Origin: Lysobacteraceae bacterium
GTDB lineage: Bacteria; Pseudomonadota; Gammaproteobacteria; Nitrococcales; AK92
DNA length: 64,000 bases
Reading direction: 5' to 3'
Assembly (NCBI GenBank): GCA_012523465.1
Contig: JAAYIK010000013.1
Coordinates: forward strand, 62,001 to 126,000
In this document: piece by piece, positions 13,860-43,926 of the stretch
Layout: each line of letters opens with the position of its first letter
How positions within the stretch are numbered: the stretch's first letter is position 1
The notes under the pieces: generated by a model
Told to the model about the DNA's origin: nothing
Database searches by the model: none
The model's input: only the letters and a program-made list of their open reading frames with translations
Position numbers and translations under genes: made by a program

Positions 13860-14216
13860 TGGTGGAGGCGGCGGGAATCGAACCCGCGTCCGTAGATCCT
13901 CCGCCGTCGGCTCTACATGCTTAGCCCAGTCTTTAGATTTAGCCGACCGCTACCCGACGGGCAGGGAACACGATCGGCAAGCCCTGGAAGGATTTAACAG
14001 CTTGGAGTCGGGCACTCCGCGCTGCGAGCTTGTGTGCTACGACCGCTGAGCAAGAGCCACAAGCAACTGCTTGTCAGCGGCTCGCGGGGATTAGGCCGCG
14101 AGAGCGTAGGTATCGTCGTTGGCGACTATTTCGTTTGTCACATGATTTACGAGGTGAGTGACGTCCTCGGCATGCACCTCAGGTTTCGCGATCCACGTCG
14201 AAGCCATGTCGCCCCC
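13860..14216 (-). ncRNA. ssrA: transfer-messenger RNA (tmRNA)
   Basis: A one-piece tmRNA of 357 bases that rescues stalled ribosomes with SmpB. The 5' end starts GGGGGCGACATGGCTTCGAC, and the 3' end has the T-arm GGTTCGATTCCCGCC and the acceptor end GCCTCCACCA, with CCA encoded. The tag reading frame at 14123-14091 encodes ANDDTYALAA then TAA; ALAA is the ClpXP/ClpAP degradation signal. Pseudoknot stretches are visible between. A -10 like TACAAT lies at 14241-14236 on the minus strand. It lies just downstream of smpB in the same direction. Confidence 0.97.
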
Positions 14217-38823: not shown

Positions 38824-38931
38824 TACCTTGTAGGGAAACGTAGGCAACGGAAGCTGATCCTAGATTGGCGGAAGCTTGCCGGACCACCCTGCAAGGCAAG
38901 GCCCCGCTCTACGGAGCGGGGCTTTTTATTT
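38824..38931 (+). ncRNA. candidate small RNA or processed glcB 3' UTR
   Basis: This non-coding stretch lies between a plausible promoter and a strong terminator. It contains several GGA trinucleotides (in AGGGA, ACGGA, GCGGA, CCGGA and ACGGA contexts). At least one is in a hairpin loop (CTTGC...GCAAG near 38874-38894), reminiscent of RNAs that bind CsrA/RsmA. The alternative is that it is simply the tail of the glcB message. No reading frame of note. Confidence 0.35.
38901..38931 (+). terminator. intrinsic terminator
   Basis: GCCCCGCTC (38901-38909) and GAGCGGGGC (38914-38922) close a TACG tetraloop, followed by TTTTTATTT. The U-tract is only on the plus strand, so it belongs to glcB or to the candidate RNA and not to the minus-strand gene beginning beyond it. 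Confidence 0.88.
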
Positions 38932-38957: not shown

Positions 38958-39251
38958 CTAAAAGGGAATCTCGTCATCGAAGTCGTCCTGCACCGCCGCC
39001 GCAGCGACCGCCTTGCGGTAGGCAGCGGGCCGCCCCGCCGCGTTGCGCGGCGCTGGCCGCTGCTGTTCGGAGTTGACCTCGCACAGCTGGAACCAGCCGT
39101 CGCTGCCCAGTGGGACCGCCTCAAGCTTGGGGCTAAGACCTTTCTCGGTTTCGAAGACGGCGCCGCAATTCATGTAGCGCCGTCTTTCCTGTCCGTTGCG
39201 GTCGATGTAGCTACCGGTGACCGCGACCACGTCATAGCGCTTGATGGCCAT
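38958..39251 (-). CDS. small phage-type protein with SSB-like acidic C-terminus
   Basis: A 97-residue protein ending in DDFDDEIPF, very close to the C-terminal tip of single-stranded DNA-binding proteins (DDDIPF) that recruits repair enzymes. The N-terminal 60 residues (MAIKRYDVVAVTGSYIDRN and on) look like a compact beta-rich domain, possibly an OB fold, joined by an Ala/Arg/Pro linker. It is the last gene of a three-gene unit, 2 bp after the YqaJ exonuclease gene. I infer ssDNA binding or partner recruitment; the domain itself I do not recognise for certain. Confidence 0.7.
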   Translation of the reverse strand: MAIKRYDVVAVTGSYIDRNGQERRRYMNCGAVFETEKGLSPKLEAVPLGSDGWFQLCEVNSEQQRPAPRNAAGRPAAYRKAVAAAAVQDDFDDEIPF

Positions 39252-39253
39252 GG

Positions 39254-40147
39254 TTACTCCTGTTCGGTGATGCGGAAGCGCCAGCTGCCGGGTTTGCGGT
39301 ATCGCTCCAGATCAAGATCGATGTCGGCACTCACCCGCTGCCAGTCGATCTCGCCCCGCTTGAAATAGCGGGTGAGCTTGACACCGGCGCCTTTGGTGTC
39401 GCGGTTGCCGGCTTCCCTGATCAGCGCGGCGCGGGCTTCGGCTTCGGCGCGTCGGGCCTCGTCCAGCCACATCTTGGCTTCCCGCCAGCTGGCGACGGCG
39501 TCGCGCCAGGCAGGATCGGTGCGCTCATGGACATCGCGATCGGTCAGCGGCGGTGCCTGATCTTCGTCCAGGTAGTGGAAGAAGGTCTCCCAGGCCGCTG
39601 CCAACGCCACTTGCGCCGCCGGGTCCGGGCCAACCTCGCAGACCAGGCAGTCGGTGACGACGCTGCCTTCGGCGTGGCAGACGACGAAATGGGCCTTGGC
39701 TGCGGTCGCGCAGTACAGCCCTTGCTGGAGCTGCCACCAGTAATGCTCTGGTGGGCCACCATGGCGCGCCACATAGCACCAGAGATCGGAGTCACGGCCT
39801 CGGGTCGGACACTTGATTTCCAGCACCGTCCGGCCGTCGAAGGAGAGCCCGTCGAGGCTGGCGCTGATGCGTCCTCGAGCAATCACCTGCGGTTCGAACA
39901 CCTCGCCGAGCCTGCCTTCGATGAAGGCTCTGGCGGCAGGCTCCAGCGCCAGGCCTCGTCGCATGGCGGGCGTCACTCCCGGCTCGACCCGACCGCTTTT
40001 CAGCAGCCAGAGCTCGTAGGGCGTGCGCGGAAACCAGGGCGAGCAATCCATCAGGGCAGCCAGCTCCGACGCATTGCCCATGCGGCTGCGGTATTCCCGC
40101 CATTCCCGGCTGCCCTGCCACTCGTGCAGGCGAACCACCGAGCTCAT
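39254..40147 (-). CDS. YqaJ-family viral recombinase / exonuclease
   Basis: A 297-residue PD-(D/E)xK nuclease of the lambda-exonuclease-like YqaJ family. The first motif is NASELAALMDCSPW (residues about 25-38). The catalytic residues appear in ISASLDGLSFDGRTVLEIKCP, with the Asp and the E-x-K spaced as in the family. A C-terminal helical part (about 215-260) is rich in Arg, Glu and Ala. Such enzymes resect 5' strands to feed an annealing protein. It overlaps the upstream annealing-protein gene by 4 bp, so the two are translationally coupled. Confidence 0.87.
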   Translation of the reverse strand: MSSVVRLHEWQGSREWREYRSRMGNASELAALMDCSPWFPRTPYELWLLKSGRVEPGVTPAMRRGLALEPAARAFIEGRLGEVFEPQVIARGRISASLDGLSFDGRTVLEIKCPTRGRDSDLWCYVARHGGPPEHYWWQLQQGLYCATAAKAHFVVCHAEGSVVTDCLVCEVGPDPAAQVALAAAWETFFHYLDEDQAPPLTDRDVHERTDPAWRDAVASWREAKMWLDEARRAEAEARAALIREAGNRDTKGAGVKLTRYFKRGEIDWQRVSADIDLDLERYRKPGSWRFRITEQE

Positions 40148-40983
40148 GCCACGTCCTCCTTGTCCTGCTTCTTCTTCTCCAGCATGCGCCGGGCGCGCTC
40201 GAAGTCGTCGCGTGGCAGCTCGTGCAGATCATCGACCTTGAAAAAGCGGCGGAACTTGACGTCGTCGGTATCGGTTTCCGCGATCAGCTGCTCAAGGATG
40301 CTGACTTGCTCGGCGCTGATCTTAGGTGCCAGCTGGCGCTGCTCGGCCTCATGTTTTTCTGCAAATTCCTGCTGCAGGTCACTGACATATTTGTTGTCGT
40401 CGAAGCGGCCCAGATACACGTCAGCGGAGAAGCCGAGCAGCGACAGGCACTTGCTCATGGCGTCGGTGAGAGATTTCTTCGGCGCTTCCTCGTCGGTGAA
40501 CAGGCCGTTGCGGTTGCGGCCGACGAAGGTGGTCTGGCCGAACTGCACGACCTCCCCGCGCACGCCGTCGAGGCGATACCAGAGCTTGACTCGAACCTTG
40601 TGAATCTTCTCGTGGTTGCCTTGGGCGTCGAGCGGAGCGCCTTCCATGATAGCTTCGTCCAGGATCTCCAGTCCCCAGCCGATGCCGATCGGGCCGAAGA
40701 TCTCGGTCGCCTTCTTGGCCAGATAGGTGGCATTGGTCGCCGTGCCCCGAAAGCCTCCGCCGCGACTGAAGGGCTTGGTGTACTGCGGGTCAGTTTTCTC
40801 GACTCGCTGCCAAAGCGCCAGGTTCTCGGCGGCGGCCCGCTGTTCCTGTTTCAGCTGCGCGGCCTTGACGTTGCGATTGGCGCGACTATCGGTCGCAGCG
40901 CTCTTGCTGGTTGCCATCTCGAATTCCTCAACGTAGCGACGGTGTTCGCACTCTTCCTGCTGACGGAAAGATGCGTCTTCCAT
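40144..40983 (-). CDS. phage-type single-strand annealing / recombination protein
   Basis: A 279-residue protein whose core (about residues 65-190) contains QYTKPFSRGGGFRGTATN, YLAKKATEIFGPIGIGW and a C-terminal KSLTDAMSKCLSLLGFSADVYLG. This resembles ERF/DUF1071/Rad52-like single-strand annealing proteins of phages and mobile elements. A charged C-terminal tail follows. Two starts are plausible: ATG 40983 (GGAG nine bases upstream) and ATG 40917 (GAGGA eight bases upstream, 257 residues). I use the longer. It is the first gene of the cassette, and a LexA box lies 150 bp upstream. The exact family needs a profile search. Confidence 0.75.
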   Translation of the reverse strand: MEDASFRQQEECEHRRYVEEFEMATSKSAATDSRANRNVKAAQLKQEQRAAAENLALWQRVEKTDPQYTKPFSRGGGFRGTATNATYLAKKATEIFGPIGIGWGLEILDEAIMEGAPLDAQGNHEKIHKVRVKLWYRLDGVRGEVVQFGQTTFVGRNRNGLFTDEEAPKKSLTDAMSKCLSLLGFSADVYLGRFDDNKYVSDLQQEFAEKHEAEQRQLAPKISAEQVSILEQLIAETDTDDVKFRRFFKVDDLHELPRDDFERARRMLEKKKQDKEDVA

Positions 40984-41133
40984 TTCTCGGCTCTCCCGAA
41001 GGCGGCGGCGGGCGCTGGGGCCGGCCTGACCGCGCAATGGCTCATGGCTGGCACACGTCGGCGGGATGAACGCTGCGAGGCCTTTAGTATGTTGAGGCGA
41101 GGCTCAGGAGAATGATCGAATACAGTTACATGA

Positions 41134-41149
41134 CTGTATAGACATACAG
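41134..41149 (-). promoter_or_regulatory. LexA (SOS) box upstream of the recombination genes
   Basis: CTGTATAGACATACAG fits the gammaproteobacterial LexA consensus CTG-N10-CAG, with matching inner ATA bases. A further half-site TACAGT at 41121-41126 forms TACAGT-N6-ACTGTA with the left arm of the box, so three half-sites are regularly spaced. The only gene whose 5' region this is belongs to the minus-strand recombination cassette. Confidence 0.75.
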
Positions 41150-41259: not shown

Positions 41260-43926
41260 CTAATCGAGCAGGCTTTTCTCGACGATGCGGATGTTGAAGT
41301 CGTCTCGGCTGGGGCGGACCGTAAAGCCGAGACGACGCATCAGTGCCAACATCTTGGTGTTGTTGCTGAGAACATCGCCTTGGATTTTCTTCAGCCCCTT
41401 GGCAGTGGCCACGTCCATCAGGCGGTTCATCAGCAGGGTGCCCAGCCCTTGGCCCTGCACCTCGTCGCTGATGGCGATGGCGAATTCGCAGCTTTCGCCG
41501 TCCGGCAGGATGACGTAGCGGGCGACCCCGATTTGTTGCTCCTCGCCGTTTAGGTCACGGGTGGCAATCAGGGCCATTTCGCGGTCGTAGTCGATCTGGG
41601 TAAAGCGCACCAGCATGCTCGGCGTCAGCTCGCGCCGCTGCTCCATGAAGCGGAAGTACTTCGACTCGGCCGACAGCCGATACACGAAATCCTGCTCGAG
41701 CTCCGCGTCCTCGGGACGGATGGGACGGATGGTGATGGGCGTGCCGTCACGCAACGCGGCCTGTGATACCAGGTGCATGGGGTAGGGCGAGATCGCCATG
41801 TGCGGATAGTGATCACTGCCCGTCGGGGGCGGGCCGATCACGAAGCGCGCGTCCAAAGCCAGCGCGCCGGTCTCGTCAAGGACCAGCGGATTAATCTCCA
41901 GCGCCCGAATGTGCGGCAGCTTGCAAATCATTTCCGACAGCTGCAGCAGCACGCGGACCAGCGCCTCCTGATCGGCGGCCGGCCGGCCATCGTAGGCCTG
42001 CAGCAGGCGGACCAGCCGCGAGCGGCGGATCATGTCGCGGGCGATGATCTCGTTCAGCGGCGGCAATCCTACGGCGCGCTCCTGGACCAGCGCCACCATG
42101 CCGCCCCCGGCGGCCAGCGTCACTACCGGGCCGAACACCGGATCGGTGTCGATGCCTACCGACAGCTCGCGGCCATGCGGACTGTCGTACATGCGCTCCA
42201 GAGTAACGCCAGTGATATGCGCGCCGGGCACCGCGTTGTGGGCGGCGCTAACCAGGTCGTTGAAGGCCATGCGCACCGCCTGCGGGGTGTTGATGTTGAG
42301 TCGCACGCCGCCGATGGCTGATTTGTGCTGGATGTCCGGTGAGCTGATCTTCATTGCCACCGGAAAACCCAGGGATTCCGCCAGCTGCAGGGCTTCGTTG
42401 ACGTTGCGCGCTTCCAGGCTGCGGACGACCGGAATTCCGAAGGCCGTGAGCAGGGCCTTGGCCTCCATCGGCGTCAAATGTTGTCGGCCTTCGCCGAGCG
42501 CGCTCTCGATGATGAGGCGTGCGTTCTGTATGCCGGGCTCGGGACGGAACGCCATGGCGCCGGGCACTTGCAGCAGTAGGCGCTGGTTGCGCTGGTACTG
42601 GGCCAGATAGCTGAATGCTTCGACCGCCGCCTCCGGGGTGTCGAAATGGGGCAGGCGGTTGGCGGCGAACATTTCTCTGGCTGGCTGGGCTCGGCTCTCG
42701 CCCAGCCAGCCCGCCAGCAGCGGCTTGTTGCGCCGGCCGCCAGCGACCAGGGCCGCTGCCGTCGCCGAAGCCAGCCGCTCGCTGCGGGGAATGTAAAGCG
42801 CCACGGCGCCGTCGACGTTGGCGTCCTTGAGACAAACGTCGACCGCCTTGGCATAGGCTTCGGGCGCGATGTCGGCGGGCAAATCGAGCGGGTTGCCGAG
42901 CAGTTGCGGTCGAGGCAGCAGGGGAGCGAGTCGGTCGGCGCTGTCGGCATCCAGTTCTGGCAGGCTCAAGCCTAGCTCCACGGCCCGATCCGCAGCCACC
43001 ACCGCAGGACCGCCGCCGTTGGTGATGATAGCCAGCCTGTCGCCGGCGGCGCGTTGACCAGCGGCGAGCACGGCGGCGGCAGCAAACAGCTGATCGATGG
43101 AGCGCACGCGCACGGCGCCGGCGCGGGCTAGCGCGGCGTCAAAGACGTCATCGGCACCGATCGCGGTGCGCGTGCGGGCGGTGACCAGTCCGGCCGTCTC
43201 CTGATGGCGCCCGCTTTTCATGACTATGACGGGCTTGATGCGGGCGGCGGCACGCAGGCCGCTCATGAAGCGGCGCGGCTGGGGCACGGCCTCGATGTGC
43301 AGGAGTATGCTGCGAGTCTCGCTGTCGGTGGCGAGAAAATCGAGCACTTCGCCGAACTCAACGTCGCTGGCATTGCCGAGTGAGACCACGGTGGAAAAGC
43401 CGATATTCCTCTCCTTGGCCCAGTCCAGTGTCACGGAGCACAGGGTCGAGGATTGCGCCACCAGGGCGAGCTGCCCTGGCGTCGGCATGTCGCCACTGGG
43501 GGTGGCATTCAAATGAAGGCTGGGCCGCATGATGCCGAGGCAGTCGGGTCCGACCAGGCGGATGCCGTGCTGCTGGCAGATTTTTTTGATCTCCGCCATC
43601 TGCCGGTCGGTGAGCGGCTGGCTGCTGAGGACGATGACGGCCCGGATGCCCTTTTTGCCGCACTGCTTGAGAACGTCGGCAAGGACCCTGTTGGGACTGG
43701 CGATCACGGCGAGATCGACTTTCTCCTCGATCTCTTCCACTGTGCGGTAGCAGGGCAGGCCGCAGACGCTGCGATGCTTGGGATTGACGGCGTGCAGGCT
43801 GCCCTTGAAACCTGCCGACAGCAGATTTTCGAAGGCCAGCGAACCCAGCGCCCCCGGCCGGTCGCTGGCGCCGATCATGGCAACACTGGAAGGGGCGAAA
43901 AAGTTTTTGAGATAGTGCGTCGTCAT
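41260..43926 (-). CDS. bifunctional acetate--CoA ligase (ADP-forming) / GNAT N-acetyltransferase (Pat-like)
   Basis: An 888-residue fusion. The CoA-binding domain (about 1-130) has MIGASDRPGALGSLAFENL. The succinyl-CoA-ligase-like domains follow (about 150-450), then an ATP-grasp domain (about 480-700) with EAKALLTAFGIPVV and PVAMKISSPDIQHKSAIGGVRL. The last 150 residues are a GNAT acetyltransferase with QGQGLGTLLMNRLMDVA, the acetyl-CoA-binding loop. Salmonella Pat/YfiQ has the same architecture and acetylates acetyl-CoA synthetase. Whether the ligase part is active cannot be read from sequence. ATG 43926 gives the usual N-terminus. Confidence 0.93.
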   Translation of the reverse strand: MTTHYLKNFFAPSSVAMIGASDRPGALGSLAFENLLSAGFKGSLHAVNPKHRSVCGLPCYRTVEEIEEKVDLAVIASPNRVLADVLKQCGKKGIRAVIVLSSQPLTDRQMAEIKKICQQHGIRLVGPDCLGIMRPSLHLNATPSGDMPTPGQLALVAQSSTLCSVTLDWAKERNIGFSTVVSLGNASDVEFGEVLDFLATDSETRSILLHIEAVPQPRRFMSGLRAAARIKPVIVMKSGRHQETAGLVTARTRTAIGADDVFDAALARAGAVRVRSIDQLFAAAAVLAAGQRAAGDRLAIITNGGGPAVVAADRAVELGLSLPELDADSADRLAPLLPRPQLLGNPLDLPADIAPEAYAKAVDVCLKDANVDGAVALYIPRSERLASATAAALVAGGRRNKPLLAGWLGESRAQPAREMFAANRLPHFDTPEAAVEAFSYLAQYQRNQRLLLQVPGAMAFRPEPGIQNARLIIESALGEGRQHLTPMEAKALLTAFGIPVVRSLEARNVNEALQLAESLGFPVAMKISSPDIQHKSAIGGVRLNINTPQAVRMAFNDLVSAAHNAVPGAHITGVTLERMYDSPHGRELSVGIDTDPVFGPVVTLAAGGGMVALVQERAVGLPPLNEIIARDMIRRSRLVRLLQAYDGRPAADQEALVRVLLQLSEMICKLPHIRALEINPLVLDETGALALDARFVIGPPPTGSDHYPHMAISPYPMHLVSQAALRDGTPITIRPIRPEDAELEQDFVYRLSAESKYFRFMEQRRELTPSMLVRFTQIDYDREMALIATRDLNGEEQQIGVARYVILPDGESCEFAIAISDEVQGQGLGTLLMNRLMDVATAKGLKKIQGDVLSNNTKMLALMRRLGFTVRPSRDDFNIRIVEKSLLD

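Follow-up and report, generated by a model that had tools for sequence, protein, structure and literature searches.

We identified a three-gene operon on the minus strand of a 64-kb stretch of bacterial DNA (the window) that, as read from its open reading frames, encodes a single-strand annealing protein (SSAP), a YqaJ exonuclease and a 97-aa protein. We estimate a probability of roughly 0.7 that this operon is a phage recombination module, comprising SSAP, exonuclease and SSB-tail protein, which has been domesticated in the chromosome and, in one genus, brought directly under the control of LexA. An earlier note, made from the sequence alone, had described a tight minus-strand operon between malate synthase G and an acetate-CoA ligase gene, away from phage genes, and on both counts the description was borne out by the open reading frame coordinates, by Pfam searches of the neighbouring genes and by our reading of the full 64 kb. 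The SSAP and exonuclease genes lie on the same strand and overlap by 4 bp (40144-40147), and a 2-bp gap (39252-39253) separates the exonuclease gene from that of the small protein. The SSAP and exonuclease genes are thus arranged as an operon, with a predicted transcript. An alternative SSAP start is possible at an upstream TTG at 41037. A consensus scan for a promoter of the operon found none.

Table 1. Features of the operon and its surroundings (window positions)
Feature	Position	Strand	Basis and remarks
LexA box CTGTATAGACATACAG, perfect CTGTAT-N4-ATACAG arms	41134-41149		Near-consensus scan; conserved in G001
Additional LexA-like half-site ATACAG	41120-41125		Forms with the box a second inverted repeat, ATACAGT-TACATG-ACTGTAT; not conserved in G001
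Gene 1, RAD52-fold (modelled) SSAP, 279 aa from ATG	40144-40983	-	PHROGs, AlphaFold/Foldseek
Gene 2, YqaJ/lambda-exonuclease family 5'-3' exonuclease, 297 aa	39254-40147	-	PF09588, TIGR03033, motif
Gene 3, small beta-domain protein, 97 aa, flexible linker, SSB-Ct-like end DDFDDEIPF	38958-39251	-	phrog_18187
Terminator-like hairpin between operon and converging malate synthase gene	38898-38925	+	Pattern scan, scored on the + strand only

The operon is flanked by malate synthase G (plus strand) on one side and an acyl-CoA-ligase/GNAT (acs) gene (minus strand) on the other. Pfam assigned the nearest neighbours to metabolic families only (malate synthase G, CoA-ligase/GNAT, DsbA, transhydrogenase-like, aconitase and other metabolic genes), and the translations of the remaining window read as housekeeping proteins (DnaK, DnaJ, DapB, ClpA, FtsK and others). 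Across the whole 64 kb, reading of the open reading frames found no integrase, structural or replication genes of phage. The GC and GC3 of the operon genes are host-like. A known anti-phage defence system was rejected, as none of the three proteins matched a PADLOC defence model. The genes for tmRNA are usual integration sites; ARAGORN identified one in the window, about 25 kb from the operon (13860-14216, tag ANDDTYALAA), beside a smpB-like gene and with no integrase seen alongside.

The first protein of the operon belongs to a phage family. It matches PHROGs 7838 (E=8e-66) and 2489 (E=5e-55), and its match to Pfam Rad52_Rad22 is weak (14.7 bits against a cut-off of 20.3; 17.5 bits for the G003 homologue). 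We modelled the protein with AlphaFold (pLDDT 88), and Foldseek returned human RAD52 as the first match to this model (E=4e-8, prob 1.00), with the aligned part confined to the core and a TM-score by query length of 0.36. The modelled SSAP has the RAD52 N-terminal fold. PHROGs 7838 and 2489 name the SSAP family 'exonuclease', a label repeated in phage records, which is contradicted by the RAD52 fold of the model.

The second protein matches PF09588 (YqaJ) at E=5.9e-15 and TIGR03033 (lambda-exonuclease) above cut-off. Its predicted active-site motif, SLDG...LEIKCP, is intact and conserved in the alignment, and is the motif expected in the lambda/YqaJ nuclease superfamily. By these matches, gene 2 is a lambda/YqaJ-type 5'-3' exonuclease with its predicted catalytic motif intact.

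The third protein matches phrog_18187, a PHROGs family of unknown function, and has no match in Pfam or NCBIfam, including none to the OB-fold domain of SSB. Its model has four strands and a low-confidence linker, and yielded no match at E<0.001 among solved structures. When 20 relatives were aligned, the C-terminal PF was invariant and in most rows was preceded by an acidic stretch; an acidic tail ending in PF resembles the C-terminus of SSB. In IMG/VR, viral relatives of the small protein are encoded directly after or near YqaJ exonucleases and SSAPs of ERF, RAD52-like and RecT types (families assigned by eye from sequence unless annotated). Several phage modules share the order seen here, with SSAP, YqaJ and small protein in succession, and in a Microcystis phage the relative comes right after a gene annotated Rad52. 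These recombination-gene neighbours suggest that the small protein is an accessory of phage recombination modules. The phrog_18187-like proteins with invariant C-terminal PF (L056-L059, L121-L149; window 38958-39251) form a family of recombination accessories that has yet to be named and shares an SSB-like tail. The assignments made from the letters alone held for the three proteins: profile searches placed YqaJ above cut-off and the SSAP in phage PHROGs families, with a weak match to Pfam Rad52, and the small protein has the SSB-like tail.

We examined the region upstream of the operon for LexA sites. In the 3.0-Mb genome, just three sites lie within 3 mismatches of CTGTATATATATACAG, one upstream of lexA, one upstream of a umuD-like gene and one upstream of the operon, in keeping with the initial reading that the upstream site fits the LexA consensus; none of the three was seen to belong to recA. 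The reversed pattern of CTGTATATATATACAG, scanned as a control, gave 0 sites within 3 mismatches, and at 2 mismatches or fewer composition predicts 0.064 sites per genome, or about 2e-5 per 300-bp upstream region. The genus-mate G001 carries the identical 16-mer CTGTATAGACATACAG upstream of the same operon, where it is the best-scoring site found in that genome, and when the two upstream regions are aligned, no uninterrupted match is longer than the 17 bp that have this 16-mer at their core, the flanks being poorly conserved. Together, the site counts, the reversed control and the conservation in G001 rule out a chance occurrence of the box. Only one gene of the genome has a LexA DNA-binding domain; TIGR00498 confirms it as lexA, and the box CTGTATATATTTACAG lies 24 bp upstream of its start. 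Boxes related to CTGTATATATTTACAG also occur 23 bp upstream of lexA in G001 and G003, and the LexA motif is thus conserved in the family. The concern that the host LexA might recognise a different site was thus not realized, and in sequence the operon box matches the host LexA motif defined by the lexA and umuD boxes of the same genome. The acs gene upstream runs in the same direction and stops at 41260, which leaves the intergenic region bearing the box to the operon alone. No LexA box was found upstream of the SSAP-exonuclease pair in G002, G003 or G053, suggesting that the ancestor lacked SOS control or that these lineages lost it. The candidate SOS control is seen only as a box that the two genomes of a single genus conserve.

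We next consider how the genes are distributed. Every one of the four family genomes (the source genome G000, its genus-mate G001, G002 and G003) carries the SSAP, as does G053 from another family, against 0 of the 49 other genomes of the order; in 5/5 carriers the exonuclease gene follows it. The third gene and the LexA box occur in G000 and G001 only, the genus being sampled by these two genomes, one of them a 78%-complete draft, and no third gene was found elsewhere in G002, G003 or G053. This distribution may reflect loss of the small protein from a complete module outside the genus, or a gain within it. The absence of mobile-element genes noted at the original locus extends to the relatives: in G001, G002, G003 and G053 alike, the pair has neither phage nor ICE genes beside it. 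In G000, G001 and G003, which represent two genera, the operon or pair lies downstream of an aconitase (acnA)-sthA-(dsbA)-acs cluster, between a few hundred bases and about 5 kb away. In G002 the pair is beside murI and in G053 near a cold-shock gene, and there is no single fixed site. The acnA-sthA-acs neighbourhood is shared by these three genomes, not by G002 and G053.

All three operon genes are under purifying selection. Between G000 and G001, dN/dS is 0.16 for the SSAP, 0.21 for the exonuclease and 0.17 for the small protein, near the value for sthA (0.13) and below that for acs (0.28). SSAP identity to the source genome is about 80-81% in G001, 68% in G003, 69% in G053 and 68% in G002, running close to LexA identity (83%, 73%, 76% and 74%, respectively). 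The exonucleases of the five carriers form one clade (support 100/99). In the SSAP tree, the chromosomal copies and a G002 prophage copy fall together (98-99% support), the prophage copy nesting beside the G002 chromosomal SSAP; monophyly of the chromosomal SSAPs was rejected (p=0.03) in the presence of long branches. The nested position of the prophage copy makes host-phage exchange possible. The LexA tree, built as a stand-in for the species tree, is too weakly resolved to confirm descent across the two families.

The same G002 prophage contig (C41) provided two further observations. An N-terminal stretch of the chromosomal SSAPs (window 40920-40983; WQQQDEYAHRRWVEEY in G002) has its counterpart there in another frame (L010 427-1260), within a small ORF that overlaps the start of the SSAP gene, and from sequence the chromosomal SSAP genes look like an in-frame fusion of small ORF and SSAP. 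The contig also carries a LexA-like site, CTGTCTGTATGTACAG, at L010 3677-3692, near the repressor region.

These data bear on whether the operon is kept by its host. It might be the stranded remnant of a decayed prophage, of little use to the host and yet to be lost, whose box is left over from a phage early promoter. All three proteins do fall into phage-type families, the G002 prophage holds a related SSAP on a contig with a LexA-like site, and the genes adjoining the pair differ among genomes. The dN/dS of 0.16-0.21 across three genes has already weakened this explanation, and the retention of the pair in every genome of the family and in one of another family, the lack of further phage genes in the window and the host-like GC and GC3 also speak against it, such that we regard it as quite unlikely. 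We consider it very unlikely that a small plasmid or phage cassette, spreading independently of the host, was recently inserted in the genus. Such an insertion would fit the other flanks in G002 and G053 and the prophage copy nested in the SSAP clade, but it is at odds with the acnA-sthA-acs neighbourhood common to three genomes in two genera, with SSAP divergence close to that of LexA, and with the exonuclease, whose best match among phages, plasmids and viral contigs has about 34% identity and is no close relative. The best plasmid exonucleases are only 24-34% identical to that of the operon, and the viral-contig scan, a method that reaches close relatives only, returned no match. The earlier note had left open whether the module was domesticated or stranded; this reading was supported, and we favour domestication because of the family-wide presence, the single exonuclease clade and dN/dS values well below 1.

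For a domesticated module, we infer from sequence a mechanism that runs from LexA repression and induction through the enzymatic steps and the role of the small protein to a benefit for the cell. In an undamaged cell, LexA bound at 41134-41149 would keep the operon off, and following DNA damage, RecA-stimulated self-cleavage of LexA would turn it on. As expected from their families, the YqaJ exonuclease would then trim 5' strands at double-strand ends, and a RAD52-fold ring would pair the exposed 3' strands with complementary ssDNA. The small protein, via its SSB-like acidic end, might recruit or displace SSB-partner proteins at ssDNA. The outcome would be a RecA-independent annealing route of repair that supplements RecBCD, with a presumed benefit to the cell. 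All four family genomes and G053 have RecC, which rules out the operon as a RecBCD replacement and suggests that it adds to RecBCD. A more far-reaching proposal, which we offer tentatively and hold to be somewhat less probable than its opposite, is that this lineage has made RAD52-type annealing a standing part of its SOS response, that is, a vertically inherited, LexA-controlled and RecA-independent form of double-strand break repair beside RecBCD, with the SSB-tail protein as loader.

Alternatively, the module could serve gene acquisition instead of repair, with SOS or another stress letting cells use annealing to recombine linear or diverged DNA that arrives by phage, conjugation or transformation. 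SSAPs are known to recombine sequences that are short and diverged (PMC8093625, PMC3945230). Related three-gene modules, such as SXT ssb-bet-exo (PMC3118119), reside on conjugative elements, and SSAP relatives are found on conjugative plasmids. There is, however, no sign of DNA uptake at the locus, and the operon, which has no fourth gene, contains no Gam-like RecBCD inhibitor though RecC is present, so that incoming linear DNA would be exposed. We therefore view gene acquisition as an unlikely role.

Comparison with known systems helps to delimit what is new in the domesticated module. Like lambda Red and Rac RecET, it combines in one operon an SSAP with a 5'-3' exonuclease of the lambda-exonuclease/YqaJ superfamily. 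Gam, the RecBCD inhibitor, is part of lambda Red and not of RecET. Unlike these systems, the operon has a predicted RAD52-fold SSAP of a sequence family other than Red-beta/RecT, and it lies outside a prophage, lacks Gam and has a LexA box for direct control in place of a phage repressor. In umuDC and other LexA-controlled repair genes, the same class of box occurs in the same genome, but these are known core SOS genes; to our knowledge, no phage-type annealing operon is among the known LexA-controlled repair genes. The ssb-bet-exo operon of SXT/R391 (PMC3118119) is likewise a three-part set of SSB, SSAP and YqaJ-type exonuclease outside phage, but it is on a mobile element, its SSAP is of the Bet type and its SSB is complete. 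The phage SSAP-YqaJ-phrog_18187 modules (L056-L059, L122, L131, L133-L148) contain the same kinds of parts, several in the same order, and differ in their location in phage genomes, in SSAPs that are mostly ERF, RecT or other, and in small proteins that are about 30-50% identical. Xanthomonas phage Kintu similarly encodes an SSAP, a 'recombinase' and an 'ssDNA binding protein'. A review (PMC8987985, citing Iyer 2002) presents bacterial RAD52-type/ERF genes as sporadic captures with phage genes flanking. Relative to Red, RecET, SXT and the phage modules, the new features are the stand-alone position, the family-wide retention and, as predicted from the box, direct LexA control in one genus; a search of open-access papers found no earlier description of a LexA/SOS-controlled YqaJ/SSAP operon. 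A virus recombination kit appears to have joined the host repair response. If damage induction is true, bacteria would regulate annealing repair as a function of the host, and this lineage would be a natural test of what an annealing pathway adds to RecBCD and RecA. For the phrog_18187 family, there would also be a role in phage recombination modules to test.

Stand-alone pairs of an SSAP-like protein and YqaJ, with no adjacent phage genes, occur in other gammaproteobacteria as well. In family f31, two genera (G224, L061 7919-9465; G079, L062 8746-10343) have an unclassified SSAP-like and YqaJ pair beside rlpA and dapE, an apparent second case of domestication, with no LexA box. G363 (L060 7767-9457) has a pair of SSAP_Sak (PF06378) and YqaJ, on a 12-kb contig with no obvious phage structural genes. 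These pairs differ from the operon described here in their first protein, which is SSAP_Sak in G363 and lacks a Pfam match in f31, in that no LexA box was seen, and in exonucleases that are 36-40% identical to ours. Their independent occurrence suggests that domestication may be commoner than recorded, and that the link to LexA is the rarer feature.
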